From Opitutia bacterium Tous-C4FEB (GTDB lineage Bacteria > Verrucomicrobiota > Verrucomicrobiia > Opitutales > Opitutaceae): a stretch of 64,000 nt of DNA. Below the pieces are notes generated by a model, which worked only from the letters and a program-made list of their open reading frames with translations, had not been told where the DNA came from and did not search any database. Position 1 is the first letter of the stretch; every line of letters starts with the position of its first letter. The translations under genes were made by a program, and so were the position numbers. Of the stretch, positions 1 to 23,932 are shown piece after piece. The stretch covers positions 1-64,000 of the forward strand of contig NEVA01000016.1 of assembly GCA_002304445.1 (NCBI GenBank), in the 5' to 3' direction.

Positions 1-84
1 GGTCTGCTCGCCGCTTTTGTCATTCACTACGTCCTTTACCGCATCGGCCTCCCGAGCAAACCGTTCATTTACGTGGCATTCTGA
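1..84 (+). CDS. DltX-like acyl-shuttle microprotein, 3' part only (copy 1)
   Basis: The window opens inside this frame. The last 27 codons read as the end of a transmembrane helix followed by a short tail ending in FIYVAF and TGA at 82-84. Seventeen of the 27 residues are identical to the C-terminus of the complete microprotein at 20874-21011, including the shared PFIYVAF end. FxYxxF at the extreme C-terminus is the acyl-shuttle motif of DltX, in which an MBOAT loads an acyl group onto the tyrosine and an SGNH/DltD-type partner takes it off. By analogy with copy 2, an MBOAT gene and an SGNH gene should lie just left of the window. The start codon is off the edge. Function is inferred from motif and paralogy. 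Confidence 0.7.
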   Translation, partial: GLLAAFVIHYVLYRIGLPSKPFIYVAF

Positions 85-9578: not shown

Positions 9579-12434
9579 TTATCGCAGCCGCACGGGCCCG
9601 ACCGGGATCGCCTGCTCGATCCGCCCGGTGAATTTTTCGAAGCAACTCGATGCGCCGATCGGGTTCTCCCCGATCCAAATCTGCGCCGCCGTCGTCGGAA
9701 AACTCTCGCTGGTATGATTGAGTACCGTGCGGCCGTTCACCCGCACCCGCACCGTGGAGCGCAGTCGCTTGAGCGCGGCCTCGTCCCAATCCGGCCCGGG
9801 CTTGCGGTCGGCGTAGAGCGAGCCGAGCGAGATCTCGATCTCGAGTTCGCTGTTGTCGTTGCACGGGATCGGATCGCTCACCGGACCGCCGACACTCCAT
9901 TTGTCGTAGCCGATCACAAACTGCCCGGCGTCGGGGAAGCGGATAAAGACCACTTCGCCGGCGCCGGTCACGCCGGTCGTAAGCAGAGGTTCGCTGCGTC
10001 CGGCCCGCTCCGCCGGCAATTTGAACCGGATCAGACGGGCACCGTCGGTCGGCGCCTCCGGCCAGCGCGGCAGGCGCGACGACTCGAGCAGAGGGCCATT
10101 GAAATTTACTTCCGAGCTGCTCGAAGAAATCGCGTTGTGGCCGACAAAGACTTCGGCCGGCTCCGCCGGATGAAACGCCCGCGGCGTATCGATCAGCGTA
10201 CGGCCGTTGAAACGGATCCGGAGATGTTCGCGCCCGGCCAGGGTGTCCGATTTGCCGGCGTGCAGCGGCGCCATGTCGATTTCGATCTCCTGATCCTCGC
10301 CAGGATCGTAGTAAACATCGGGAGTTTCGACCAAGGCCCGGCTCCAGCAGTCATGCCCGAACCGCACGCGGTTCGGGCCGACATAGAAAACGTAAACGAG
10401 ATCGCCCGCGCCCATGCGTCCGGTGGAAAGGAGCGGCTGGGCGAACGTCGCGGCAAAAGGCGGGAGCCGGAGTTTCAACCGCAGCGGCCCCGTGCCGAGT
10501 TCGGCGGCGATCAACTCCCGCTCGGGCAAGCCGCCGCGCCCGGTCGCGGCGATTCGCCCGCGAAAAATCAGGTCTGTCGCCGAAGCGGGATTGCGGCCCA
10601 GTTGCAGATTCTCCGGCTCATACTGGTGCATGGCCGAAGCAAACCGCAGCAGGCTCCGCCCATCCAAGCTGACATCCACCCGCCGTTGCACCGCCGCGAT
10701 TTCGGATTCCCTCCAACCCACGAAAGCAGCGTGCACGGCCGGCGGGTAGAGCGAACCGAGATCGATTCTCAGGCGCCGCGTCTTCCCCGGCTCGATCAGG
10801 AATGGTTCGCTCAGGGGTCCGCCCGACCCGGTGTGAAAAAACCCCAACTGTGCGCGTTCGGGTTCAAGATAGCGCACGTAGATTAGATCGCGGCCGCCAC
10901 CCGTTACGACCAGCGGTTCGGTCACGCCCGCTGTCCCGGCCGCAAACGTCACTTCGGCCTCGACGGCGCCGTATTCCACGCCCGAAAGACGCTCCACTAG
11001 ATACGGAACGTGGTTCATCAGCCGCGCCAGCCACGACATCTCCGGCCGACTCGTTCCCACCGGCAGTCCATGGACCACCGAGTGAACCCCGGTGTAAAGC
11101 AGCAGGAGCATCGCGCCTCCCCGCAAAACCCGACCCAAAAAACGCCGCCTAAATTCCGTCACCCAAAGCACCGAGACCGACAGGCACGCCGCCAACATCA
11201 TCATCGGCAAAAAATCCAAGACATAGCGGTCGAAAACGTAGAAATAGAGCAGCAACGTTCCGAAATTGGCCAAAGCCGCGAATAGGGGCACACCGACGCC
11301 CATCACCCACGCCCGGTTGCGCCACCGCGGATTGCGCCAAGTCAAAGGAAAAGCCAACGCGCACAGCGCGAAAGGAGCCCAGGGCAACAGTCCGATGTTC
11401 TCCGTCGTCTGTCGGATGAACGGGAAATAGAGGCTGTATTCGCGCCCGGCCAAAACATAGCCCTCAAACGCCCGCCGCATATGCTCCAGACCGAGGAGTT
11501 TCATTTCCCGCATATCGACGGCGGCGAATTGGTAGCGGATCCCGAACTCACTCACATTCCCGAAGCGCGCGTAGTTGTAACCCGCGAGCGCAGAACCGAC
11601 GACGATTACCGGGACCACCGCCGCGGCGAGAATCGTCCGGGCTTCCCGCGACCAGAAACCCTGCGTCCGCACCCATCCCCACCACAGCCACCCCACCCCG
11701 GTCAGGGTGGCCAGCAGCGCGAAGAGATAATTGGGGCGCGCCCCGATGGCCACCGACCCGAGCGCACAGGCCAACGCAACTCCCAACGCCTGAACCCGCC
11801 ACCTCGCGCTGCCCGCCGCCAATAGGAGCGCGTTGGCCGCGCCCATCGCGCACGCGAACGCACAGGCGATCGGTACTTGGTAAAATTCCGAGCTGCGCAG
11901 TTCGAACTGCACGAACGAGCCCAAGCCGAGGGTGAGCACTACGACGAACGTCCACCACGGTCGCGGGGTCGGGAAAAAACGGCGCTGGCAGCGCCGGAAA
12001 AACCAAACCGCCAGCAGAAATCCTATCGCGCAAAACACGCCGGTGCCCGCACCGTCCGCCAAGTAGGTGCCGGTGGCCAACCGCCACGGCGCGTAGAGCA
12101 AAATCACCGGCGCCACGCCGAAATAAATATAATAGCGGTCGTTGAAATACGTCGCGTCGTGCGCCCGCGGAATCCCTTGCCCGCCGCTCCACGGATTGGG
12201 CAGCGTCTTCAGCCGGGGATCCGGCGCGATTTTCAAATGCGTCTGACCTGAAACGATCGCAGCGGTGAGCAGCTCGTAATACGCCCCGGGACCGGGTTTC
12301 ACCCACTCCGAGTTCGATCGGACGTTGGAATACGCATACCACGCCATGACGATCACGAGCGCTATCCGGCAAAGAAAGGACTCCCGCCGGGCGAGGGCGG
12401 CGGGTCGGTTCGCAGTGGCGGGATCAAAATCCAT
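9579..12434 (-). CDS. Giant polytopic membrane protein with repeated C-terminal modules (paralogue 3)
   Basis: A 951-residue member of the same family. The polytopic part (about residues 20-470) shows 'AYYELLTAAIVSGQTHL', 'AHDATYF', 'YYIYFGVAPVILL', 'GARPNYLFA' and 'NYARFGNVSEFG'. Three C-terminal modules begin near residues 490, 650 and 800. Their shared skeleton is a Pro-containing strand, 'EPLLxTG', 'GAGDLVYV', a histidine/tryptophan segment such as 'GYDKWSVGG', a 'GSLY' turn, an 'NGRT/LDGR' hairpin and 'FxGRI' at the end. Module number varies between paralogues, so the modules have been duplicated or lost. It lies next to a GtrA-like gene (12550), which would fit a lipid-linked sugar pathway. 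Function is not established. Confidence 0.8.
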   Translation of the reverse strand: MDFDPATANRPAALARRESFLCRIALVIVMAWYAYSNVRSNSEWVKPGPGAYYELLTAAIVSGQTHLKIAPDPRLKTLPNPWSGGQGIPRAHDATYFNDRYYIYFGVAPVILLYAPWRLATGTYLADGAGTGVFCAIGFLLAVWFFRRCQRRFFPTPRPWWTFVVVLTLGLGSFVQFELRSSEFYQVPIACAFACAMGAANALLLAAGSARWRVQALGVALACALGSVAIGARPNYLFALLATLTGVGWLWWGWVRTQGFWSREARTILAAAVVPVIVVGSALAGYNYARFGNVSEFGIRYQFAAVDMREMKLLGLEHMRRAFEGYVLAGREYSLYFPFIRQTTENIGLLPWAPFALCALAFPLTWRNPRWRNRAWVMGVGVPLFAALANFGTLLLYFYVFDRYVLDFLPMMMLAACLSVSVLWVTEFRRRFLGRVLRGGAMLLLLYTGVHSVVHGLPVGTSRPEMSWLARLMNHVPYLVERLSGVEYGAVEAEVTFAAGTAGVTEPLVVTGGGRDLIYVRYLEPERAQLGFFHTGSGGPLSEPFLIEPGKTRRLRIDLGSLYPPAVHAAFVGWRESEIAAVQRRVDVSLDGRSLLRFASAMHQYEPENLQLGRNPASATDLIFRGRIAATGRGGLPERELIAAELGTGPLRLKLRLPPFAATFAQPLLSTGRMGAGDLVYVFYVGPNRVRFGHDCWSRALVETPDVYYDPGEDQEIEIDMAPLHAGKSDTLAGREHLRIRFNGRTLIDTPRAFHPAEPAEVFVGHNAISSSSSEVNFNGPLLESSRLPRWPEAPTDGARLIRFKLPAERAGRSEPLLTTGVTGAGEVVFIRFPDAGQFVIGYDKWSVGGPVSDPIPCNDNSELEIEISLGSLYADRKPGPDWDEAALKRLRSTVRVRVNGRTVLNHTSESFPTTAAQIWIGENPIGASSCFEKFTGRIEQAIPVGPVRLR

Positions 12435-12993: not shown

Positions 12994-15381
12994 TCAAGGC
13001 TTAAGCCGCCAAAAACCGCCGATCGTGCCGGAAAATCTCTCACTCGCGGTCGAGGCGCCGATTGCGTTAACGCCGACCTTCACCCGCTCCGGCGGGCAGG
13101 CGTAAAATTCACCGGGCCGGTCCGCGACCACAGTGCCGTTGAGGCGCAAGATCACACGTTTGGCCGGCGCTGGCGCCGCGGCGTGGAGGGCCCCGTAATC
13201 GACCTCCAACATTTGCTCGGCTCCGGGCTCCACGGTAATCGGCTCGGTCTCGAACCCACCCACCCCCCAATGATCGTAGCCAAAAACAACCGAGCGCTCG
13301 TCCACGTATTTTACGTAAAGCAGATTGCCCCGCCCGCTCTCCCCCGATGAGACCAGCGGCTCACTCCGCTTTCCGCCAAAAGGCGGAAACCTGAACTCGA
13401 TGCACAAGGGACCATACGGAGGGGAGGTCGCTGCGGGAGCGGCCTCCGGGACACGGCGGGCCGATACAATACGGCCGGAAAACGGCCGACGAAAAGCTGG
13501 CCTCGATCCGGACGAGCCCAAGTCGGGTTCGCGGGAGAACGCATCGTAAAACTCAGTCTTCCGCCGCAACACTTCGACGCCGTCCAAAGAAACGCTCAAG
13601 GACCGCCGTCTCAACAGCGCCTGACCTTCCGGTATGCCGTCAAAATGTGGATGCGCTGCCGGGGGATACAGGGAACCCATCGCAACCAACAGAGAGTGCT
13701 CTTCGCCAGGACGGATCCGGACCGGCGTTCCCGTAAACCCTCCATAGCTAGTATGCTCGAAACAGAAGCGCACGGTGTCGGGATTCAAATAATGAACGTA
13801 GACGTAATCGGACCTGAAGTCGCGTCCCGTCACGACGATCGGCTCGACTTCGCCCACCGCATTTTTTGGAAAAACCACCTTAAGCGCGATCGGCCCATAT
13901 TCGACTCCGGCAATGCGGTCAAAATAGTGCCCCAGAAGATTGGCTCGGCGCGCCAGAGGCTCGTAAACCGCTGGGTGATTGACGCGCAGCAGCTCGTTGT
14001 GCCGCAAGCTGGCAAGCCCGCCAAACACCACCGAGTAGAGCGCCACCGAGACTGTCAAAACGGTCCCCGCCACCCTACTCCATCCCCGCCACCAAGTCCG
14101 CGTGGCTAGAGCGAGCCAGCCGACACAGGCCAACACGGTCAGCGCCGGCAAAAAATCCACCATGTAGCGGTTCGTGTTGCCAGCGAACAGCAGGAGTATC
14201 CCAAACGTCGCCCCGGCGAGCACGAGCACCGCCAGCACCCAAGTCCGCAAGCGCGTCGCTTCCCGCCGCGTTATCACCGACCAAAGCCCCAACCCCAACA
14301 AAACGAAGGGCACGTTGGGCAGCAGACCGAAAGGATTTTCAATTCCCACGTATCCCGTCGGAGCCGACGGCGCCGCGATCACCGACACAAAGGGGAAATA
14401 GGGGCTCCAGCCCGCCGCCGACAAACCGTAGATCCACGCATTGAAGCCGATATATCGAAAACTGAATGTAACCGGATTTACTCCATCCGCGTTGAGCTGG
14501 TAGCGCTGTCCGAATTCCAGCGGGTTGTCGAAGCGCGCGTAGTTATACAACGCCAACCCTGAACCGATAATCGCTAACGGCACGATCGCTGCCAGAACCG
14601 CCTGCCGCCAAGCCGGCCCGCGCCACCCCCTGCCGTGTCCCCAAAGCCATAGCGGCGCCAGCAGCGCGGCGCAGCCAAACAAGTAGGTCGGCCTGGCTCC
14701 CACGGCGAGCCCCAGAGCCAAGCTGGCGAGCGCCAGCCACCAAACCCGGCGGAGCCTCGTGTGCAGTGACCAAAAAATGGCAAATATTCCGGCCATCGCA
14801 CAAGCGTGCGCCGAGGTGATGGGGACCTCCCACACAGCCGGCCGGCGCAACAACGACGGCATCAGCGTGCAGAGGCCCAGCGCGATCGCACTACCGGCCA
14901 TGATCCACCCCGGCGCAGTCGGAAAATATCTGGCACGGACCGCGCGCACGAGCACCGTCATCAGGATCAACCCCACCGCGGCGAAAACCAACGACGCCGC
15001 CTCTTCGCTTACATAAAGTCCGGTGAGCAATCGAAACGGCAGGAAGAGCAGCAATGCCGGCGTCGCGCCGAAATAGAGGTGGTAGGCACCCCGGTAATAG
15101 GTCGCGTCGTGCAACCCACGGTTACCCCGCTCAACCGCACTCCAAGGGTTCTTCAACGTCGCGAGCACGGGGTCGGCCGGCATGTCCAGCGGCAATTGTC
15201 CTTTGAGGAAACCGCGCGTGAGCAGGTTGAAGTAGTGGTCGCTGTGCCCCGAGATCAGGCCGGCGCGCGATTCCGGCCGAGCCGTCCAGAGATAGAACCA
15301 CAGAACAAGGCCGATCACCAGCGCGAGCACCACTGTTTCCGCCCGCTTCCCCCATCGGGGACGCAGAGGCGCGTTCACCAT
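12994..15381 (-). CDS. Giant polytopic membrane protein with repeated C-terminal modules (paralogue 4)
   Basis: A 795-residue paralogue. The frame is open for another 54 codons upstream, but those overlap the remnant of paralogue 5 and are Gly/Arg/Trp-rich. The ATG at 15379-15381 gives a basic N-terminus followed at once by a membrane helix, as in the other copies, so it was chosen. Signatures: 'HYFNLLTRGFLKGQLPL', 'LHDATYY', 'YHLYFGATPALLLF', 'GARPTYLFG', 'NYARFDNPLEFG' and 'NRYMVDFLPAL'. Two C-terminal modules start near residues 497 and 660; the second has 'FGYDHWGVGG' and 'FSGTIGG'. A role in surface-glycan assembly is inferred from context and topology. Confidence 0.8.
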   Translation of the reverse strand: MVNAPLRPRWGKRAETVVLALVIGLVLWFYLWTARPESRAGLISGHSDHYFNLLTRGFLKGQLPLDMPADPVLATLKNPWSAVERGNRGLHDATYYRGAYHLYFGATPALLLFLPFRLLTGLYVSEEAASLVFAAVGLILMTVLVRAVRARYFPTAPGWIMAGSAIALGLCTLMPSLLRRPAVWEVPITSAHACAMAGIFAIFWSLHTRLRRVWWLALASLALGLAVGARPTYLFGCAALLAPLWLWGHGRGWRGPAWRQAVLAAIVPLAIIGSGLALYNYARFDNPLEFGQRYQLNADGVNPVTFSFRYIGFNAWIYGLSAAGWSPYFPFVSVIAAPSAPTGYVGIENPFGLLPNVPFVLLGLGLWSVITRREATRLRTWVLAVLVLAGATFGILLLFAGNTNRYMVDFLPALTVLACVGWLALATRTWWRGWSRVAGTVLTVSVALYSVVFGGLASLRHNELLRVNHPAVYEPLARRANLLGHYFDRIAGVEYGPIALKVVFPKNAVGEVEPIVVTGRDFRSDYVYVHYLNPDTVRFCFEHTSYGGFTGTPVRIRPGEEHSLLVAMGSLYPPAAHPHFDGIPEGQALLRRRSLSVSLDGVEVLRRKTEFYDAFSREPDLGSSGSRPAFRRPFSGRIVSARRVPEAAPAATSPPYGPLCIEFRFPPFGGKRSEPLVSSGESGRGNLLYVKYVDERSVVFGYDHWGVGGFETEPITVEPGAEQMLEVDYGALHAAAPAPAKRVILRLNGTVVADRPGEFYACPPERVKVGVNAIGASTASERFSGTIGGFWRLKP

Positions 15382-15406
15382 GGAGAGTTGGTCGGACAGG
15401 TGAGCT

Positions 15407-16279
15407 TCATCCGGAAAGGCCACGCCAGCGCATCCGACGAGACAAGCTCCAATACCCGGCTCCCACCGCGATAATCGGCCCCAGCGCCGCCGCCGCCAGC
15501 CCCAACTATCGGTTGGGTCGCCCCACCCACCACCGCAGCGCAAGCGGTGCTAGCAATACCACCGCACCGGGAAGGTAAGTGGGCCGCGCGCCCACCGTCA
15601 GCCCCATCGCCAGACTCGCCGCGCCCAGCCAGATCCAGCCCCCGCGCTTCGCCCGGATCGCCCGCCACGTGCAGAGTAACGTCAGCATGAAACCCGCGTA
15701 GCCCGCCGCGATGGGCACCTCCCAAATGCTCGGCCGCCGCAGCAAGGGCGGCACCATCGTGGCCAAGCCCAACGCCAACACTCCCAGCAGCAACACCCAA
15801 CCCGGCGCCCCCGCAAAATGCCGCCGCCGCACATCCAGCAGCACCGTCACCGACAATAGAAAGCCGGCCCACGCGAAACCCACGATCACGAACCGCTCGT
15901 CGATAAATCGGCCCGTAAGGAGCCGCACGGGAGCAAACGCCGCCACCACCGGCGTGACTCCGAAATAGATGAAGTAGCGCCCCTGGTAATAAGACGCGTC
16001 GTGCAATCCTTTGCCCGCCCGCTCCGCGGGATTGTAGGGATCCTTGAGCGCGAGCATCGCCGGCTCCACCACGCGGTCCAAGGCCGTCTGCCCCTAAAGA
16101 AAACCTCGGGTGAGCAAGTTGTAGTAGCCTTCGCCAGTGGCCTCCAACACCGGCCGATTCCCCTCCGGATCTACCGTCCAGACGAAGAACCAAGCGATTA
16201 ACGTTACCGCCAAAGGGACCGATACACGCACGAGCATCGGGGAACGACTGGTAAAAGGCGGGCGCGGCGCTGAATCCAC
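15407..16279 (-). pseudogene. Nonsense-mutated, truncated remnant of the giant membrane protein family (paralogue 5)
   Basis: Read as one frame, this segment encodes about 290 codons homologous to the N-terminal part of the neighbouring giant proteins: 'YYNLLTRGFL', then TAG at 16094-16096, then 'GQTALD', 'LHDASYY', 'YFIYFGVTPVV' and 'GARPTYLPG'. A second TAG lies at 15506-15508 and the frame closes with TGA at 15407-15409. The remaining membrane helices and all C-terminal modules are missing. The intact paralogues have Lys/Ala or similar where the first TAG lies, so a point mutation (for example AAG to TAG) is likely. Several intact genes here end in TAG, so recoding is unlikely. Confidence 0.8.
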
Positions 16280-17508: not shown

Positions 17509-18492
17509 ATGATCATCACCCGTTCACCCCTGCGCGTGTCCCTCGGCGGCGGCGGCACCGACCTACCGTCCTACTACCGCGAATTCGGCGGCTTCCTCGT
17601 CGCGGCGGCCATCGACAAATACGTCTACCTCACGCAGCACCGCACGTTTCAACCGGGGATCATCGTCAAATATTCCAAACTCGAGCGCGCCGACCACGTC
17701 GACCAAATCGAGCATCCGATCGTCCGCGAGGCCCTGAAACTCACCGGCGTGACCGATCCCCACCTCGAGCTCACCTCGATGGCCGATATCCCCGGCGGCA
17801 CCGGCCTCGGCTCCTCGGGCAGCTTCACCACCGCCCTGCTCAAGGCGCTGCACACGTCGAAGAAGAGCCTGGTTTCCCCCGCCGAGCTCGCCGAGCAGGC
17901 CTGCGACATCGAGCTCAACAAACTCGGTGAGCCCATCGGCAAGCAGGACCAATACATCGCCGCCGTCGGTGGCATCACGGCCTTTACGTTTCACAAAGAC
18001 GGCCGCGTCGAATATCGCCCCGCCCGTATTTCCGAAGAGACGCTCTTTAATCTCGAAGACAATCTCCTCCTCTTTTTCACCGGCTACTCGCGTAGCGCCT
18101 CGGCGATTCTCAAGGACCAGAACGAGAAGTCCAAGGCCAACGATCAGGCCATGCTGGACAACATGCACTTCACCAAGGAGCTCGGCTACAAGTCCCTCGA
18201 GTGCCTCGAAACCGGCAACCTCGACGAATTCGCCCGCCTGATGGACGTGCACTGGCAGCGCAAAAAGATCCGCAGCGCCGGCATGAGCAACCCCGTCATC
18301 AACGACTGGTATGACCACGCGATGAGCAACGGCGCCCTTGGCGGTAAGTTGATCGGCGCCGGCGGCGGCGGCTTCCTCATGTTCTACGCGGGCGACAAGA
18401 AAAAGCTCCGTCACGCCATGCGCGAAAAAGGTCTCCAGGAAGTCCGCTTCCGCTTCGACTTCGAAGGCACCAAGGTCGTCGCCCAAAACTAG
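17509..18492 (+). CDS. hddA: GHMP kinase, D-glycero-alpha-D-manno-heptose 7-phosphate kinase-like
   Basis: A 327-residue GHMP kinase. The N-terminal 'SPLRVSLGGGGTDL' and the ATP-binding motif 'PGGTGLGSSG' (residues 95-104) match HddA-type heptose kinases, and the C-terminal 'KLIGAGGGGFLMF' is GHMP motif 3. HddA phosphorylates D-glycero-D-manno-heptose 7-phosphate at C1 in the GDP-heptose pathway. The other pathway enzymes are encoded just downstream (hddC 21099, gmhA 21902, gmhB 22596), which strongly supports this function. The related fucokinase/L-fucose-type kinases are less likely given this context. An A-rich, SD-poor leader precedes the ATG. Confidence 0.88.
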   Translation: MIITRSPLRVSLGGGGTDLPSYYREFGGFLVAAAIDKYVYLTQHRTFQPGIIVKYSKLERADHVDQIEHPIVREALKLTGVTDPHLELTSMADIPGGTGLGSSGSFTTALLKALHTSKKSLVSPAELAEQACDIELNKLGEPIGKQDQYIAAVGGITAFTFHKDGRVEYRPARISEETLFNLEDNLLLFFTGYSRSASAILKDQNEKSKANDQAMLDNMHFTKELGYKSLECLETGNLDEFARLMDVHWQRKKIRSAGMSNPVINDWYDHAMSNGALGGKLIGAGGGGFLMFYAGDKKKLRHAMREKGLQEVRFRFDFEGTKVVAQN

Positions 18493-18516: not shown

Positions 18517-19716
18517 ATGATTTTCAACACCTACTGGTTCGTCCTTTTCACGGTCGTTTTTTTTCCCGGGTACTGGCTGATCAGGTGGCCCGCCGCCCGC
18601 GGTTGGTGGCTGCTCTGCGGGTGCGCCGTGTTTCATACCCACTTCGCCGGCCCGGCGGGAGTCGTGCCCATCGTCGTACTCGGCGCGCTCACCTACGCCT
18701 GTGCCCTGAGCGGTAACCGTCTGCTCTGCTATGGCGCGGTCGCCGCCTGCGTCATCGCGCTCGTCGGCTACAAATACACACACTTTTTGAGCGCCGAGAT
18801 CCTCGCCGCCATCGCTCCGGAGCTTGGTGCAAAAACCAACGCGATCGCCGCCACTTGGCTTCCGGCGATCCCGCCGCTCGCCCTGAGTTTCTTTACCTTC
18901 GAATTCGTTCACTACCTCGTCGACGTGGCCCGCGGCCATGCGCCGATCCGCCGCCCCAAGGAGTTCGCACTCTTCGCGATCTATTTTCCGTCGCTCGTCG
19001 CCGGCCCAATCAAGCGCTATCAGGATTTCACCGCCGCCCTGCCCAAGGCCCTCGGCCGCGTCGAACTCGCCGATGTCGCCGCCGGCGCCCAACGCGTGGC
19101 CCTCGGGTTCTGCAAAAAAATCCTGCTCGCCGACAACCTCACCCTCGCCCTCGCGTTCCACGAAAAGGATTTCTTCGCCCTCACCGCCCCCGAGGCCTGG
19201 CTCTTTCTCGCCGCGCTCGCCGCCCGCATTCTCCTCGATTTCAGCGGCTATACCGACATCGCCCTCGGCTTCTCCCAAATGCTCGGCGTGCGCCTGCCCG
19301 AGAATTTCAACTACCCCTACGCGGCCACCGGCCTCCGTGATTTCTGGGCCCGGTGGCACATCTCGCTCAGCTCGTGGATTCGCGATTACATTTACATTCC
19401 TCTGGGCGGCAGCCGCCACGGCCGCTTCCGGCGCTTCCTCAATCTCGTCGTCGCCTTCGCGCTCTGCGGCCTATGGCACGGCCCCGCTGGCCATTTCCTG
19501 CTCTGGGGCCTCTGGCACGGCGGCGGCCTCGTCGTGCAGGCCACTTACCGCACCGCCCTCGGCCCGTTGGGCGCCAAGCTCGGCGCCGGCTTCGACCGCG
19601 TGCCCCTCCTCGGCTGGCTCGTCACGTTGCTCTTCGTCGCCTTCGGTTGGCTGCTCTTTTTTTATCCCGTCGCCCAGGCGTGGGCCATGGCCGTCAAACT
19701 CCTGACGTTTCGCTGA
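18517..19716 (+). CDS. MBOAT-family O-acyltransferase (DltB/AlgI-like)
   Basis: A 399-residue polytopic protein with about 10 membrane segments. It carries the MBOAT signature 'LRDFWARWHISLSSWIRDY' and the conserved histidines H321 and H334 in 'LWHGPAGHFLLWGLWHGG'. MBOATs of this class take an acyl group from a cytoplasmic thioester and pass it across the membrane. The length is close to DltB and shorter than AlgI. Its C-terminus ends '...KLLTFR' and lacks the FxYxxF motif often fused to Gram-negative MBOATs; that motif is instead on the microprotein at 20874. It is 24 bases after hddA and 3 bases before the SGNH gene, so all are probably cotranslated. The acyl donor is unknown. Confidence 0.9.
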   Translation: MIFNTYWFVLFTVVFFPGYWLIRWPAARGWWLLCGCAVFHTHFAGPAGVVPIVVLGALTYACALSGNRLLCYGAVAACVIALVGYKYTHFLSAEILAAIAPELGAKTNAIAATWLPAIPPLALSFFTFEFVHYLVDVARGHAPIRRPKEFALFAIYFPSLVAGPIKRYQDFTAALPKALGRVELADVAAGAQRVALGFCKKILLADNLTLALAFHEKDFFALTAPEAWLFLAALAARILLDFSGYTDIALGFSQMLGVRLPENFNYPYAATGLRDFWARWHISLSSWIRDYIYIPLGGSRHGRFRRFLNLVVAFALCGLWHGPAGHFLLWGLWHGGGLVVQATYRTALGPLGAKLGAGFDRVPLLGWLVTLLFVAFGWLLFFYPVAQAWAMAVKLLTFR

Positions 19717-19719
19717 GTC

Positions 19720-20877
19720 ATGACGTTCAACCAACTCAAAGCGCTCGTCCTCCTCCTCGCGATCCCCGTCGGTTTCGCCCTCGCCGTCCGGCTCGGCCGG
19801 GAGGCGGAAGGTTACGCCAAACCCCAAAGATTTGTCCGTCTCCACTACGGGATCTCGCCGGAGAGCCTGTACTACCTGCCGTTTTCGATGCTTGAGAATG
19901 TCGCGTTGGCACGGTGGGCGCCGGGCAAAACGATCGTAATCGTCGCCGGCAACTCCATCCTGAATGGCTACGGCCAGGCCGAACGCGATGTCTGGACCCT
20001 GCGCCTCCAAGAGGAACTCGGCGACCGCTACGTCGTGGTCAACCTCGCCTTCCGCGGCGCGCTACCCTACGAGGCCGGCGCCCTCGTCGCCGAATCATTG
20101 CTGCGGCGCAATTACCCCGTCGTCCTCGTCTCCAACACCTCCCCGGGGACGGTCGGACGCGTTGCCGGCAACGCCTACGGCTACCTCTATTATGATGCCC
20201 TCTACAAGGGCCGGCTCTTCAACCACCCGGCCCGCGATGCCAACATCGCCGAGTGGGAAGCCACGGCCACACCCGCCGTGCGCGCGGAGCAGGATGAACT
20301 TCGCCGCGCCGCCCGCCTTGATGCCAATTTGCGCTTCCAAGCGCTCTGGCATCACGTCGGCTACCGCCACCTGTTCACGACCTGGAACCCACACACCCGT
20401 CCGCAATTCTGGCAAGCCCGCGCGTCGGCGGTGGATAATCTGCCCGTCGCACCGCCGCTGGCCGAGCGTTTCCGCACTGAAGTCGCCTCAGAGCTCACCA
20501 TCACCCAGGGATTCAGCGTCAACCTCGCCGAGCCGGACGGTAGCGGCTCTTGGCGCGTCCTCGGCCCACCCGCCGAGATCGTCAGCGACCTCATCGAAGA
20601 TATGATTCCGCCCAAAATGCGTCGTCACATGGTCATGCTCCTGACGCAAAACGCTCCATTTTACCGCACCCGCCTCACTCCCACAGAGCTCGCCCGCGAC
20701 AATCTCGTTTTCTCGGCCTACGAACAACAATGGCGCAAACACGGTATCGCCGCCCACATCGTCGGCCTAGATTTCACGGACGAAGACTACTACGATCGCT
20801 CGCATCTCGCCGCTGCAGGCGGCCGCAAACTGGCCCGCCTCACCGCCGACTACGTCCGCCAAATCTCCCCGCCATGA
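19720..20877 (+). CDS. Membrane-anchored SGNH/DltD-like acyl transferase
   Basis: A 385-residue protein with an N-terminal membrane anchor (about residues 6-23) and a periplasmic SGNH-like domain. 'VAGNSILNGYG' places a candidate nucleophile at S79, and the C-terminal 'DRSHLAAAGGRKLA' places D359 and H362 in the DxxH arrangement of SGNH enzymes. In Dlt-like systems such a protein takes the acyl group from the shuttle tyrosine and transfers it to the polymer. The start is 3 bases after the MBOAT stop, and its TGA overlaps the ATG of the microprotein (20874), a strong sign of a complex. The polymer acceptor is inferred to be the heptose-containing glycan. Confidence 0.82.
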   Translation: MTFNQLKALVLLLAIPVGFALAVRLGREAEGYAKPQRFVRLHYGISPESLYYLPFSMLENVALARWAPGKTIVIVAGNSILNGYGQAERDVWTLRLQEELGDRYVVVNLAFRGALPYEAGALVAESLLRRNYPVVLVSNTSPGTVGRVAGNAYGYLYYDALYKGRLFNHPARDANIAEWEATATPAVRAEQDELRRAARLDANLRFQALWHHVGYRHLFTTWNPHTRPQFWQARASAVDNLPVAPPLAERFRTEVASELTITQGFSVNLAEPDGSGSWRVLGPPAEIVSDLIEDMIPPKMRRHMVMLLTQNAPFYRTRLTPTELARDNLVFSAYEQQWRKHGIAAHIVGLDFTDEDYYDRSHLAAAGGRKLARLTADYVRQISPP

Positions 20878-21011
20878 CGCCCTCCCGCCTCCGCCAATGC
20901 GGCGCGCTCACCGCCCGCCTCGCCATCGGTCTCACCATCGGGTTTCTCCTGCACTACCTCCTTTACCGACTCTCGCTTCCCGTGCAGCCCTTCATCTACG
21001 TCGCATTCTAG
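20874..21011 (+). CDS. DltX-like acyl-shuttle microprotein (copy 2, complete)
   Basis: A 45-residue protein easily missed by gene callers. It starts at the ATG overlapping the TGA of the SGNH gene (ATGA at 20874-20877) and ends with TAG at 21009-21011. It has a basic N-terminus, a single transmembrane helix (about residues 12-32) and a short tail ending PFIYVAF. FxYxxF as the last six residues is the DltX-type acyl-shuttle motif; Y43 would be the acylated residue, on the periplasmic side if the N-terminus is inside. MBOAT, SGNH and microprotein in this order reproduce the core of the dlt operon without dltA/dltC. A homologous end lies at 1-84. Motif and context are seen; acyl transfer is inferred. 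Confidence 0.82.
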   Translation: MTPSRLRQCGALTARLAIGLTIGFLLHYLLYRLSLPVQPFIYVAF

Positions 21012-21098: not shown

Positions 21099-21824
21099 AT
21101 GCCCGCCTCGCCCGTCGCCCAACTCCCCGTCGCGCTGCTCGCCGGCGGCCTTGCCACCCGCCTGCGACCGATCACGGAGAAAGTCCCCAAGCTCCTCATC
21201 GAAGTCGCGGATGAACCGTTCTTCTCCCACCAAATTCGCCTCCTGAAAAAAGCCGGTCTCACCAAGATCGTCCTTTGCGTCGGCTACCTCGGCGAAAAAA
21301 TCGTCGAGCTCTACGGCGACGGATCAAAGTGGGGCATCGACATCCAATACTCGTTCGACGGCCCCAAACTCCTCGGCACCGGCGGCGCCCTCATCCAGGC
21401 GCTCCCCAAGCTGGGCGACGCCTTCTACGTTCTCTACGGCGACAGCTACCTTCCCATCGATTACCTCGCGGTCGGCGACCATTTTCAAAAGTCCGGTCGC
21501 CTCGGCCTCATGACCGTCTTCGAGAATAACGAGCGCTACGACGCCAGCAACGTCGAGTTCTCCGGCGGTGAGATCAAGGTCTACGACAAGAAGCACAAGA
21601 CGCCCGCGATGCACCACATCGACTACGGACTCGGCCTCTTCCGCGCCGCCGCCTTCGACGGCTTCCCCCGCGACGCCGTCGTCGATCTCGCCGAAGTTCA
21701 AAAAGCCCTCGTCGCCCGCCATCAACTTGTCGGCTACGAAATCGGCGACCGTTTTTACGAAATCGGTTCCCACGAGGGCCTCAACGAACTGGACGCCCTG
21801 CTTCGCTCTGGGAAGTTCGTCTGA
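21099..21824 (+). CDS. hddC: Sugar nucleotidyltransferase, D-glycero-alpha-D-manno-heptose 1-phosphate guanylyltransferase-like
   Basis: A 241-residue NTP_transferase enzyme. 'LAGGLATRLRPITEKVPK' (residues 14-31) is the nucleotide-binding signature with the catalytic Arg and Lys, 'GTGGAL' follows, and 'YGDSY' (D115) supplies the metal-binding aspartate. In this operon it most likely transfers GMP to heptose 1-phosphate to make GDP-D-glycero-alpha-D-manno-heptose. Homologous RmlA/RffH-type thymidylyltransferases are longer, which favours HddC. It follows the acylation cassette by 87 bases and precedes gmhA. The start chosen puts the GGLATR motif about 15 residues in, the usual distance. Confidence 0.82.
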   Translation: MPASPVAQLPVALLAGGLATRLRPITEKVPKLLIEVADEPFFSHQIRLLKKAGLTKIVLCVGYLGEKIVELYGDGSKWGIDIQYSFDGPKLLGTGGALIQALPKLGDAFYVLYGDSYLPIDYLAVGDHFQKSGRLGLMTVFENNERYDASNVEFSGGEIKVYDKKHKTPAMHHIDYGLGLFRAAAFDGFPRDAVVDLAEVQKALVARHQLVGYEIGDRFYEIGSHEGLNELDALLRSGKFV

Positions 21825-21901: not shown

Positions 21902-22513
21902 ATGTCCTACGCCATCCAACATCTCAAAGAGACCGCCGAAATCGTCGCCAAGCTTGATCCCGTCGCCATCGAAAAGGGCGCGCAGGAACTCGTCGGCGTC
22001 CGCAACCGTGGCGGTCGCCTCTTCATCCTCGGCGTCGGTGGCAGCGCCGCCAACGCCTCCCACGCCGTGAACGATTTCCGCAAAATCGCCGGCCTCGAAG
22101 TTTACGCTCCCACCGACAACGTCTCGGAACTCACCGCCCGCACCAACGACGACGGCTGGGCCAGCGTGTTCGTGGAGTGGCTCCGCGGTTCCCGCCTCAA
22201 CGCCAAAGACGCCCTGCTCATCCTATCGGTTGGCGGCGGCAACCTGGAGAAGAACGTCTCCCCCGGTTTCATTTCCGCGATCCAGCTCGCCAAGCAAGTC
22301 GGCGCCCGCGTCATCGGCATCGTCGGCAAAGACGGCGGCTACACCGCCACCCAAGCCGATGCCTGCGTCATCATCCCGACGGTAAACCCCAACAATATCA
22401 CCCCCCACTCCGAAGCCTTCCAAGCCGTGGTCTGGCACCTGTGGGTTTCCCACCCCGACGTGAAAGTGAATCAAACAAAATGGGAATCCGTAGTAGCGGC
22501 TCCAGCCCGCTGA
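21902..22513 (+). CDS. gmhA: SIS-domain isomerase, sedoheptulose 7-phosphate isomerase-like
   Basis: A 203-residue single SIS-domain protein. The phosphosugar-binding loop 'GVGGSAANASH' lies at residues 44-54, and later 'LILSVGGGNLEKN' and 'TPHSEAFQAVVWH' match the GmhA/DiaA family, with a histidine/glutamate near the C-terminus as in GmhA. GmhA converts sedoheptulose 7-phosphate to D-glycero-D-manno-heptose 7-phosphate, the first step of the pathway completed by GmhB, HddA and HddC nearby. It differs from classical GmhA in some loop residues, so it could be a divergent paralogue acting on the same sugar. An intrinsic terminator follows at 22530. Confidence 0.82.
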   Translation: MSYAIQHLKETAEIVAKLDPVAIEKGAQELVGVRNRGGRLFILGVGGSAANASHAVNDFRKIAGLEVYAPTDNVSELTARTNDDGWASVFVEWLRGSRLNAKDALLILSVGGGNLEKNVSPGFISAIQLAKQVGARVIGIVGKDGGYTATQADACVIIPTVNPNNITPHSEAFQAVVWHLWVSHPDVKVNQTKWESVVAAPAR

Positions 22514-22529
22514 ATTGTTAATCTTGCAT

Positions 22530-22559
22530 AACGCGGCGATGACCTCGCCGCGTTTTTTT
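22530..22559 (+). terminator. Intrinsic terminator after gmhA
   Basis: A perfect 10-bp stem (AACGCGGCGA at 22530-22539 with TCGCCGCGTT at 22545-22554), a TGACC loop and a run of seven T from 22553. It would end or attenuate transcription of the hddA to gmhA run before gmhB at 22596. Confidence 0.88.
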
Positions 22560-22595
22560 GTTTTTAACCGTTCCGAATCCCTCTCCGCCTACTCG

Positions 22596-23192
22596 ATGTC
22601 CGCTCTTCGCCCCGCCGTCTTCCTTGATCGCGACGGCACGCTCAACCTTCAAGTCGTCCGCGCCGGCAAACCCTACCCGCCGGCTACCCTGGCCGAATTC
22701 GCGCTTTCCCCCGGTGTGCCCGAGGCTTGCGCCCAACTCGCCGCCGCCGGCTATGTGCTCGTGGTCGCCACCAACCAGCCCGACGTCGGCCGCGGCGACC
22801 AAGCCCAATCCGTCGTCGAGTCCATGCACGCGCGGCTCCGCGAACTCGTCCCCGCCATCTCCCACATCGAGGTTTGCTACGCACCCGGCCAAGGCGTCGC
22901 GCACGCCGAGGACTATCGCCGTAAACCCGCCCCCGGCATGATCACCGACGCCGCGAGCAATCTCGGCCTCGACCTCGCCCGTTCATGGATGGTGGGTGAC
23001 CGTTGGCGCGACATTGACTGCGGCCAACGCGCCGGTTTGCGCACCGTGTTTATCGACTTCGGTTACGACGAAGCCCTCCGTGCCGCCCCCGATTTCACCG
23101 TCCAGGACTTCACCGCCGCCGCCGCCGTAATCCTGCGCTCCACCCCTCTGCCCGAAAGTAAATCCTTGCCCGCGCCGAACCCCGAAACCTGA
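22596..23192 (+). CDS. gmhB: HAD phosphatase, heptose 1,7-bisphosphate 7-phosphatase-like
   Basis: A 198-residue HAD-superfamily enzyme. The catalytic DxD is D11/D13 in 'FLDRDGTLN', motif II is 'VATNQPDVGRGD', the lysine motif is 'RRKPAPGM' and the final motif is 'MVGDRWRDID'. This is the HisB/GmhB layout. It would remove the 7-phosphate between HddA and HddC. Unlike classical GmhB, the zinc loop (CxH...CxC before the KP motif) is absent: only one Cys and one His remain in 'VCYAPGQGVAHAED'. The ATG at 22596 was chosen because it puts DRDGT at residue 11; the frame extends upstream through the terminator, which is not plausible coding sequence. Confidence 0.8.
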   Translation: MSALRPAVFLDRDGTLNLQVVRAGKPYPPATLAEFALSPGVPEACAQLAAAGYVLVVATNQPDVGRGDQAQSVVESMHARLRELVPAISHIEVCYAPGQGVAHAEDYRRKPAPGMITDAASNLGLDLARSWMVGDRWRDIDCGQRAGLRTVFIDFGYDEALRAAPDFTVQDFTAAAAVILRSTPLPESKSLPAPNPET

Positions 23193-23212
23193 CTGCCCTC
23201 AAAAACCAAAAC

Positions 23213-23932
23213 ATGAAATCCCTCGCCGATCTCAAAGTTCAGCTCTACGCCGACGGTGCCGATAAAGCCGGCATTCTCGAACTCTACGCCAAGCCCTACA
23301 TCAAGGGCCTGACGACCAACCCCAGCCTCATGAAGAAGGCCGGGATAAAAGACTACGAGGCCTTCGCCAAAGACATCCTCCAGACCGTCACGGCGAAACC
23401 CATTTCACTCGAAGTCTTCACCGACGACATCGTCGATATGAAACGCCAAGCCCTCATGATCAATTCCTGGGGCGCCAACGTTTACACCAAGATTCCAATC
23501 ACCAATTCCAAGGGTGAATCCTGCCTGCCCCTCATCAAGGAGCTGGGCCTGCTCGGCGTTAAACTCAATGTCACCGCCCTCCTCACTCTGGCCCAAGTCC
23601 GGGGTGTCGCCGAGGCCCTCAATCCCGCCGTGCCCGCCGTCGTCTCGGTGTTCGCCGGCCGCATCGCCGACACCGGCGTCGATCCGATGCCCATCATGCG
23701 TGCCAGCGGGGCCCTGCTCACCGAGTTGCCAAAAGCGGAGCTCCTCTGGGCCAGCACGCGCGAGGTTCTGAATCTTTTCCAAGCCGAGGAATCCGGGTGC
23801 GCCATCATCACGGTCCCCCACGATATTCTGGGAAAGGCCGCCAAGATGATCGGCTTCGACCTGACCGCCCTTTCGCTGGACACCGTAAAGATGTTCGTCG
23901 CCGATTCGAACGCCGCCGGTTTCAAACTCTAA
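23213..23932 (+). CDS. Transaldolase/fructose-6-phosphate aldolase family
   Basis: A 239-residue class I aldolase barrel. The N-terminal 'GLTTNPSLM' and the Schiff-base lysine K93 in 'NVYTKIPIT' are diagnostic of the transaldolase family; the short length resembles TalC/FSA-type enzymes. It follows gmhB by 20 bases and is closed by a strong terminator. Transaldolases interconvert sedoheptulose 7-phosphate with fructose 6-phosphate, so a role in adjusting the heptose precursor pool is attractive. That link is inferred from position; a general pentose-phosphate role is equally possible. Confidence 0.88.
   Translation: MKSLADLKVQLYADGADKAGILELYAKPYIKGLTTNPSLMKKAGIKDYEAFAKDILQTVTAKPISLEVFTDDIVDMKRQALMINSWGANVYTKIPITNSKGESCLPLIKELGLLGVKLNVTALLTLAQVRGVAEALNPAVPAVVSVFAGRIADTGVDPMPIMRASGALLTELPKAELLWASTREVLNLFQAEESGCAIITVPHDILGKAAKMIGFDLTALSLDTVKMFVADSNAAGFKL

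Follow-up and report, generated by a model that had tools for sequence, protein, structure and literature searches.

Can a Gram-negative glycan acylation machine carry its acyl-shuttling tyrosine on a gene of its own? The question is raised by a 64,000-nucleotide stretch (hereafter the window) of Opitutia bacterium Tous-C4FEB, of the family Opitutaceae (assembly GCA_002304445.1, contig NEVA01000016.1, positions 1 to 64,000). The window encodes, one after the other, an acyltransferase of the MBOAT family, a membrane-anchored SGNH protein and a microprotein of 45 residues, here called X, which ends in the hexapeptide FIYVAF (Table 1). The acyl-tyrosine shuttle was reportedly proposed by Schultz in 2023 in Nature Microbiology. 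The sections of PMC12148441 consulted here report acyl-tyrosine chemistry for DltX of the teichoic-acid D-alanylation (Dlt) pathway, show it for PatA, where the acyl-tyrosine was followed by mass spectrometry or radiolabel, and state that DltX binds both its MBOAT and its SGNH partner. In the same sections, the MBOAT/SGNH pathways outside Dlt have no DltX-like microprotein, and their shuttle tyrosine is fused to the MBOAT. Judged by sequence, the family described below is a Gram-negative counter-example to that account, with a putative shuttle on a separate gene, an arrangement previously described only for Gram-positive Dlt. Searches of open-licence PubMed Central papers listed no report of a stand-alone FxYxxF microprotein outside Dlt.

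We consider it very probable that the three proteins form a transmembrane acylation machine in which the MBOAT loads Y42 of the microprotein and the microprotein hands the acyl group to the serine of the SGNH protein, for transfer to an envelope glycan. This reading, which an earlier note on the same DNA had proposed, is supported by the observed gene anatomy, the conservation and co-occurrence of the parts, the phylogenetic position of the motif-less MBOAT and the predicted fold of the SGNH protein.

Anatomy of the cassette

The MBOAT exceeds the gathering cut-off of its family model (27 bits), and its residues H321 and H334 are invariant in an alignment of 23 members, the window protein included. 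In the SGNH protein, which has one transmembrane-like stretch near the N-terminus, S79, D359 and H362 are invariant in an alignment of 27 members that again includes the window protein. The X gene starts within the ATGA that ends the SGNH gene, and its product has a single transmembrane-like stretch. The three genes, their catalytic residues, the ATGA overlap and the terminal FIYVAF had been read from the bare sequence in the earlier note and are borne out, save for the numbering of the shuttle tyrosine, given there as Y43; FIYVAF occupies residues 40-45, so the tyrosine is Y42. Only two of the 2454 stop-terminated frames in the window end in FxYxxF, namely X and a second copy, X2.

The MBOAT itself lacks the motif, as had also been claimed. 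In an alignment of 58 MBOATs, with C-terminal length counted from window residue 383, the window protein ends 16 residues past this point with no FxYxxF and is not of the fused (AlgI/PatA) type. The stand-alone-type MBOATs (n=32) end 14-18 residues past it and DltB (n=2) 10 residues, whereas the motif-bearing MBOATs (n=22) continue for 89-136 residues, with one or two hydrophobic stretches and FxYxxF at the very end. Moreover, a fused F[IL]YF[QRNI]F tail was read by script in 33 of 36 loci, made up of the 30 with the top scores in a phylum-wide search plus six from Vampirovibrionia; the other three were one stand-alone type, one running off its locus and one missed by the script. Vampirovibrionia is what we take to be the class of loci recorded as Melainabacteria, Obscuribacterales or Cyanobacteria.

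Distribution and conservation of the microprotein

Relatives of X were identified by similarity to its 45 residues in 26 of 150 genomes of the family (29 places, E ≤ 2.6e-4, the next best match having E 0.024). A scan of 84,980 species with the pattern P[VSG]xPFIYV[AV]F returned 31 loci, of which 28 are labelled Opitutae, Opitutaceae or other Verrucomicrobiota and three Melainabacteria, Obscuribacterales or Cyanobacteria SZAS-4. Within the phylum of the window, 387 genomes were searched and seven of them, all from the window's family, had clear matches (E 2.3e-16 or better); matches in seven genomes outside the family (E 7.6e-5 to 0.01), mostly in long frames, look like chance and were set aside. 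A profile search in the class of genome G502, one of the three labelled Melainabacteria, Obscuribacterales or Cyanobacteria, found a copy of X in 9 of 289 genomes, the three starting genomes among them. The system had been described as one of the Verrucomicrobiota, where it is indeed found, but it occurs in Vampirovibrionia as well. A plasmid search with X gave no match, and two weak membrane-helix matches of the X profile to solved structures (E 0.02 and 0.19), both ending before the hexapeptide, were taken as chance.

When loci were collapsed by the DNA of their last 28 codons, 49 distinct microproteins of Opitutaceae and Vampirovibrionia were obtained, the window's two included; the copies of G109 and G572, which have internal stop codons, and the divergent copy of locus L090 stand outside this count. 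The hexapeptide is FIYVAF in 37 of them, FIYAAF in four and FIYANF in two, with FLYVAF, FIYVVF, FIYVSF, FVYVGF, FIYAWF and FIHVAF found once each, so that both Phe are kept in 49/49 and the Tyr in 48/49. F40, Y42 and F45 are invariant in two alignments of X (19 and 20 members), from both of which the FIHVAF copy was excluded. Across the 49 copies, synonymous codons replace one another at the fixed P, F, Y and F with hardly any change of residue, whereas seven kinds of residue occur at each of positions -8 and -9, counted from the C-terminus. This synonymous drift at fixed residues indicates that X is a protein under selection and not a chance frame. The earlier note held that homologous operons without a terminal FxYxxF would speak against its proposal; 48 of the 49 copies keep the motif and the exception lies in a genome, G026, in which the search found a single MBOAT, of the long fused kind, although many copies were found with motif-containing queries and this comparison is not fully independent.

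Co-occurrence, gene order and natural losses

Among the 150 family genomes, X is present in all 23 that were judged to have an MBOAT of the stand-alone kind, against 3 of the 127 others (G026, G146 and G087; Fisher 3.5e-24, from hand-entered counts). The MBOAT match is strong in 20 of the 23 (E ≤ 1e-116, the copy of G109 being broken), and three genomes in which it is divergent or a fragment (G059, G088, G148) were added by hand; counting G146, where a remnant MBOAT lies beside X, would make 24. X lies close by at 20 of the 22 strong MBOAT places, and the remaining two (G018:C141 and G062:C379) are at contig ends before the expected X. Three Vampirovibrionia genomes, with 9, 10 and 9 MBOAT matches, each have one short frame (410, 404 and 429), the others measuring 441-519, and all six of the long MBOATs that were read end in the fused motif.

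A near full-length MBOAT match lies within 4.5 kilobases (kb) of 31 of the 49 distinct microproteins, and the Tyr is kept in 31/31. The order of the genes in these 31 loci is MBOAT-SGNH-X in 25, MBOAT-X-SGNH in three (L083, L088, L147) and SGNH-X-MBOAT in one (L143); the other two are L146, with MBOAT-X and no recognised SGNH, and L089. Locus L089 (7799-8968) has a divergent MBOAT, a divergent GDS protein and then X; by eye, the frame that follows looks like an AT3-type acyltransferase (WIDGLRG).

The copy of G026 (L080, G026:C123) reads FIHVAF (Tyr to His) beside an SGNH gene, with no MBOAT found at the locus; the single MBOAT match in that genome is of the long fused kind (42% identical, frame of 492, ending FIYYRF). 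We regard this loss of the tyrosine, in a genome where no stand-alone-kind MBOAT was found, as a natural control that supports the shuttle reading. The MBOAT next to X in G146 is missing its middle, and the X there ends in FLYVAF; G148 has a truncated MBOAT gene and an X that is still open, and in G109 the MBOAT, SGNH and X genes are all broken. Genome G074 (L074, C17:688000-707000) carries an SGNH-X pair with intact FIYVAF in a sugar operon like that of the window, with no MBOAT match in 19 kb; the sole MBOAT found in this genome is about 84 kb from the pair, beside an SGNH and an X of its own. Losses of this kind, with the Tyr replaced by His or with the MBOAT deleted or missing, offer a ready evolutionary test.

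Two further genomes show variants of the trio. The Melainabacteria-labelled genome G500 (L124, L168) has one full trio, whose X ends in FIYANF, the hexapeptide of NgPatA, and a second X ending in FIYVAF that is adjoined by a 29-residue SGNH match only. Locus L090 (G088:C141, 4545-6951), from the window's own genus, is a different and divergent stand-alone case, with a 393-residue MBOAT, a 36-residue frame ending SSKFIYIDF and then a GNS/DSLHL protein.

Phylogeny of the MBOATs

In a first tree (58 rows) a single clade (100/99) unites 30 stand-alone-type MBOATs, the protein of G059 being its weaker sister (84/74), and the fused MBOATs and references form a separate clade (94/99). The Azospirillum and Subdoligranulum proteins, which have no strict fused motif, fall in the latter. 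The divergent L031, the protein of locus L090, is placed outside both clades, so that the stand-alone group (DltB uncounted) needs two changes. L031, PatA, Subdoligranulum, S. meliloti and G059 have long branches in this tree. A trimmed tree of 43 proteins was obtained by dropping 24 rows, among them L031, PatA, Azospirillum and Subdoligranulum, and adding nine. In it one branch (95/88, 95% of bootstraps) parts 25 fused MBOATs from 18 stand-alone ones, three DltBs included, a split that says nothing on the four proteins named since they were dropped. The branch of DltB is very long in both trees (>4 changes per site). As both trees are unrooted, fusion-first and fission-first look the same in them.

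The SGNH protein

An AlphaFold2 model of the window's SGNH protein (predicted local distance difference test, pLDDT, 93) has DltD as the best among the 50 fold matches listed. The DltD entries 7dxm_B, 3bma, 6pfx and 6o93 reach Z 13.3, 13.2, 12.9 and 11.8, against 9.9 or less for the non-DltD folds in that set, PatB having 8.8. With 7dxm_B, 270 residues were aligned at a root mean square deviation of 4.5 and 12% identity. According to this model, the window protein has a DltD-like fold with Ser-Asp-His. AlgX and AlgJ are not among the 50 matches listed, which excludes nothing. The fold was predicted for the window protein only, and the SGNH partners of fused MBOATs may be equally DltD-like.

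None of the 27 SGNH members matches Pfam DltD (PF04914) at E 1, where a control DltD scores 419 bits, and five of them weakly match a general GDSL lipase model (best E 0.0083). The AlgX model PF16822 matches none of the 27; of four SGNH proteins that partner fused MBOATs, it matches three, and a GDSL model matches the fourth. A comparison of the SGNH protein with the sequences of solved structures gave two chance-level matches, which were discarded, and nothing else.

Comparison with known systems

The architecture is that of Dlt (DltB, DltX and DltD, with DltA and DltC), in which an MBOAT without tail motif is likewise accompanied by an SGNH protein of DltD fold and by a stand-alone one-helix microprotein ending in FxYxxF. 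The window differs in its Gram-negative host and its nucleotide-sugar operon; its X ends in FIYVAF, whereas the DltX of L152 ends in FIYNEF, and its proteins do not pass the family models for DltB, DltD and DltX. Against the DltB equivalog TIGR04091 (cut-off 375 bits) the window MBOAT scores 169.2 bits, compared with 534.5 for a control DltB and 185.1 for PatA. Since no NCBIfam model recognises even a real DltX, the Pfam test alone counts for membership in the DltX family. Assignment to Dlt was rejected on these models, with their positive controls. The term Dlt-like of the earlier note can therefore be kept for the architecture and the predicted SGNH fold, but does not make the proteins members of the DltB, DltD or DltX families. 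At L151 (4227-6485), from a Lactobacillus helsingborgensis plasmid, we also observed Pfam DltD and Beta-lactamase (serine hydrolase) domains fused in a frame of 752 residues.

PatA/PatB share with the window an MBOAT, an SGNH protein and a Tyr hexapeptide, and the X of L168 and L179 even ends in the FIYANF of NgPatA. The PatA hexapeptide, however, is on a fused extension of the MBOAT and that of the window on a separate gene, and the window's SGNH fold matches PatB less well than DltD among the matches listed. The AlgI-type fused MBOATs (alginate and related), which are common in Verrucomicrobiota, likewise consist of a PF03062 MBOAT with an SGNH partner, but there the MBOAT ends in F[IL]YF[QRNI]F in 33 of the 36 loci and three of the four partners compared match the AlgX family, neither of which is seen in the window family. 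Fused MBOAT tails compared with the X profile gave a best E of 0.31, about the level of background frames.

Proposed mechanism

In the machine that we propose, the MBOAT would take an acyl group from a cytoplasmic thioester. An acyl-CoA, for instance acetyl-CoA, is the most likely donor, given that the 96% complete genome yielded no gene above the cut-off for DltA (TIGR01734), the dedicated D-Ala ligase of Dlt, five matches lying below it (best 95 bits). Crossing the membrane by way of the MBOAT, the acyl group would then reach Y42 of the microprotein, in the FIYVAF tail that is expected at the periplasmic mouth of the enzyme. Once acylated on the tyrosine, the tail would swing to the SGNH protein, where S79 may accept the acyl group and donate it to a hydroxyl on an envelope glycan, which in the window probably contains a heptose-like sugar from the surrounding operon. 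We infer the acyl chemistry, together with topology, complex formation, acyl group and target; the shuttle reading draws on the acyl-tyrosine chemistry reported for DltX and shown for PatA, and the window has parts of the same kinds.

A shuttle on its own gene could be altered, exchanged or provided in trans with the MBOAT left intact, and this would open the acyl-tyrosine hand-over to direct tests. At 45 codons, such a gene is easily overlooked in annotation.

Several observations weigh against this three-part shuttle machine. The 31 pattern loci were found with a pattern that contains the motif and are no test of its conservation; the family similarity search and the profile search in the class of G502 are better tests, yet their queries include the motif too. 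The charge at the flanks of the X helix is only mildly biased (mean +2.3 on the N side and +1.3 on the C side), and locus L146 has an MBOAT and X with no recognised SGNH protein within the stretch covered. Two reference MBOATs outside Dlt do not follow the rule of the fused motif, that of Azospirillum extending 232 residues past residue 383 with no motif and that of Subdoligranulum 107 residues and ending in SIYGRF, not the strict motif. In the first tree the stand-alone group is one-sided in just 44% of bootstraps, with two changes. The AlphaFold2 model of the MBOAT (pLDDT 84) matches DltB 6bug_C with Z 29.7 over 366 residues, which is weak evidence because DltB is the sole bacterial MBOAT among the solved-structure matches listed. 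Finally, at E 1 Pfam DltX (PF12459) recognises 0/19 microproteins (control DltX 57.9 bits), their matches to other families being at chance level, and true DltX is not among the 25 best of 916 targets ranked with the X profile. Common descent of X and DltX is therefore not shown by sequence.

Alternative explanations

Small single-helix subunits often serve as tethers, and X could be a structural tether or assembly factor, with FIYVAF as a docking tail and the acyl group moving directly or through another residue. The binding of DltX to both of its partners (PMC12148441, sections consulted) would agree with such a role. Nevertheless the tyrosine is kept nearly throughout while positions -8 and -9 vary, the MBOATs lack the motif that their motif-bearing relatives carry, and the one copy that has lost the Tyr comes from a genome in which no partner MBOAT was recognised, so we think a tether unlikely. 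We give about the same small chance to a recent fission of an ordinary fused MBOAT, whose separate C-terminal piece would have no functional meaning. Fused MBOATs are present in genomes of the same family and the shuttle chemistry would be the same, but the 30 stand-alone-type MBOATs form a single clade distinct from the family's fused ones, X has one transmembrane-like stretch where the fused extension has one or two, and the variable gene order (25/3/1 of 31 loci) argues that X is not a mere cut-off tail.

That the SGNH protein is an esterase which removes acyl groups, the MBOAT and X acting on something else, seems improbable to us. The SGNH fold is common to many esterases, and the five weak matches to the GDSL lipase model point the same way; its nearest fold among the matches listed, however, is DltD, an acyltransferase, its gene overlaps that of X, and an SGNH-X pair is retained at L074, a locus that yielded no MBOAT. 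Least credible of all, in our view, is a true D-alanylation pathway in a Gram-negative bacterium. The three proteins would fit the roles of DltB, DltD and DltX, and the SGNH protein is closest in fold to DltD among the solved structures listed, but the MBOAT scores no better than PatA against the DltB model and far below a real DltB (169, 185 and 534 bits), Pfam DltD recognises 0/27 SGNH members, no gene in the genome exceeds the DltA cut-off and DltB sits on its very long branch.

Apart from these alternatives, the acylation machine with a separate shuttle lends itself to a broader and much more tentative suggestion, namely that the stand-alone shuttle is an old separate state and not a peculiarity of Dlt, and that it acts as a plug-in module, one MBOAT loading several shuttle/transferase pairs in trans. 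The former part is drawn from the trimmed tree, where DltB and the stand-alone clade are on one side and the 25 fused MBOATs on the other, and the latter from the pattern of G074, with its SGNH-X pair and distant sole MBOAT. If true, one donor enzyme would serve several glycans.

Genomic context

For the glycan target we look solely to the neighbouring genes. Heptose-like nucleotide-sugar genes lie beside the cassette in 9 of the 31 pattern loci, one of them cut by a contig end and one with broken genes. The set includes an HddA-like kinase, an HddC/MurU-like nucleotidyltransferase, a GmhA-like isomerase, a GmhB-like phosphatase and a transaldolase, not all of them at each locus. The HddA-like kinase is also the upstream neighbour in L120, L123, L127, L135, L136, L138 and L141. 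For the window's copies, NCBIfam cut-offs are exceeded by matches to the transaldolase and general HAD models alone, so the heptose-like sugar is what we infer from weaker matches. Within the stretch covered, none of the nine pattern loci with the tail GLPSKPFIYVAF has heptose-like matches. The window also encodes glycosyltransferases, methyltransferases and epimerases, and the region is consistent with a surface-polysaccharide locus.

Table 1. Features of the cassette and its surroundings in the window
Feature	Position	Strand	Evidence and remarks
MBOAT acyltransferase, 399 residues	18517..19716	+	PF03062 92.6 bits; H321/H334 invariant; without C-terminal hexapeptide
Membrane-anchored SGNH (GNS) protein, 385 residues	19720..20877	+	S79/D359/H362; DltD-like fold (predicted)
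ATGA stop/start overlap of SGNH and microprotein genes	20874..20877	+	sequence
Putative stand-alone shuttle microprotein X, 45 residues	20874..21011	+	one transmembrane-like stretch; MTPSRL...PVQPFIYVAF; ends P-F-I-Y-V-A-F
Hexapeptide FIYVAF, X residues 40-45	20991..21008	+	proposed acyl-carrying Y42, codon 20997-20999
Second microprotein X2, 3' end	1..84	+	similarity match E 1.5e-6; ...GLPSKPFIYVAF, stop 82-84; 5' end cut by contig edge
GHMP sugar kinase, HddA-like, upstream neighbour	17509..18492	+	NF049969 162 bits, cut-off 600
Sugar-1-phosphate nucleotidyltransferase, MurU/HddC-like, downstream	21099..21824	+	PF00483; NF045761 119 and NF049965 85 bits, both below cut-off
GmhA-like SIS isomerase, GmhB-like HAD phosphatase and transaldolase, three downstream genes	21902..23932	+	family models

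X2 reads GLLAAFVIHYVLYRIGLPSKPFIYVAF and is a 5'-truncated copy of X. Searches of the window genome's assembly found two microproteins, a single MBOAT and, of the stand-alone kind, a single SGNH protein. In a close relative (L120, labelled Opitutus sp. GAS368 in its record), the MBOAT is 95% and the HddA-like kinase 99% identical to those of the window. In this relative (L132/L120) an X2-like frame lies about 20.8 kb upstream of the first microprotein on the same contig, adjoining part of a second SGNH gene, and the spacing is the same as in the window, which explains the cut copy at the window edge. On the minus strand the window also encodes two long membrane proteins (9579-12434 and 12994-15543; 951 and 849 residues), without Pfam match, whose C-terminal halves look alike by eye and between which sits a GtrA-like gene.

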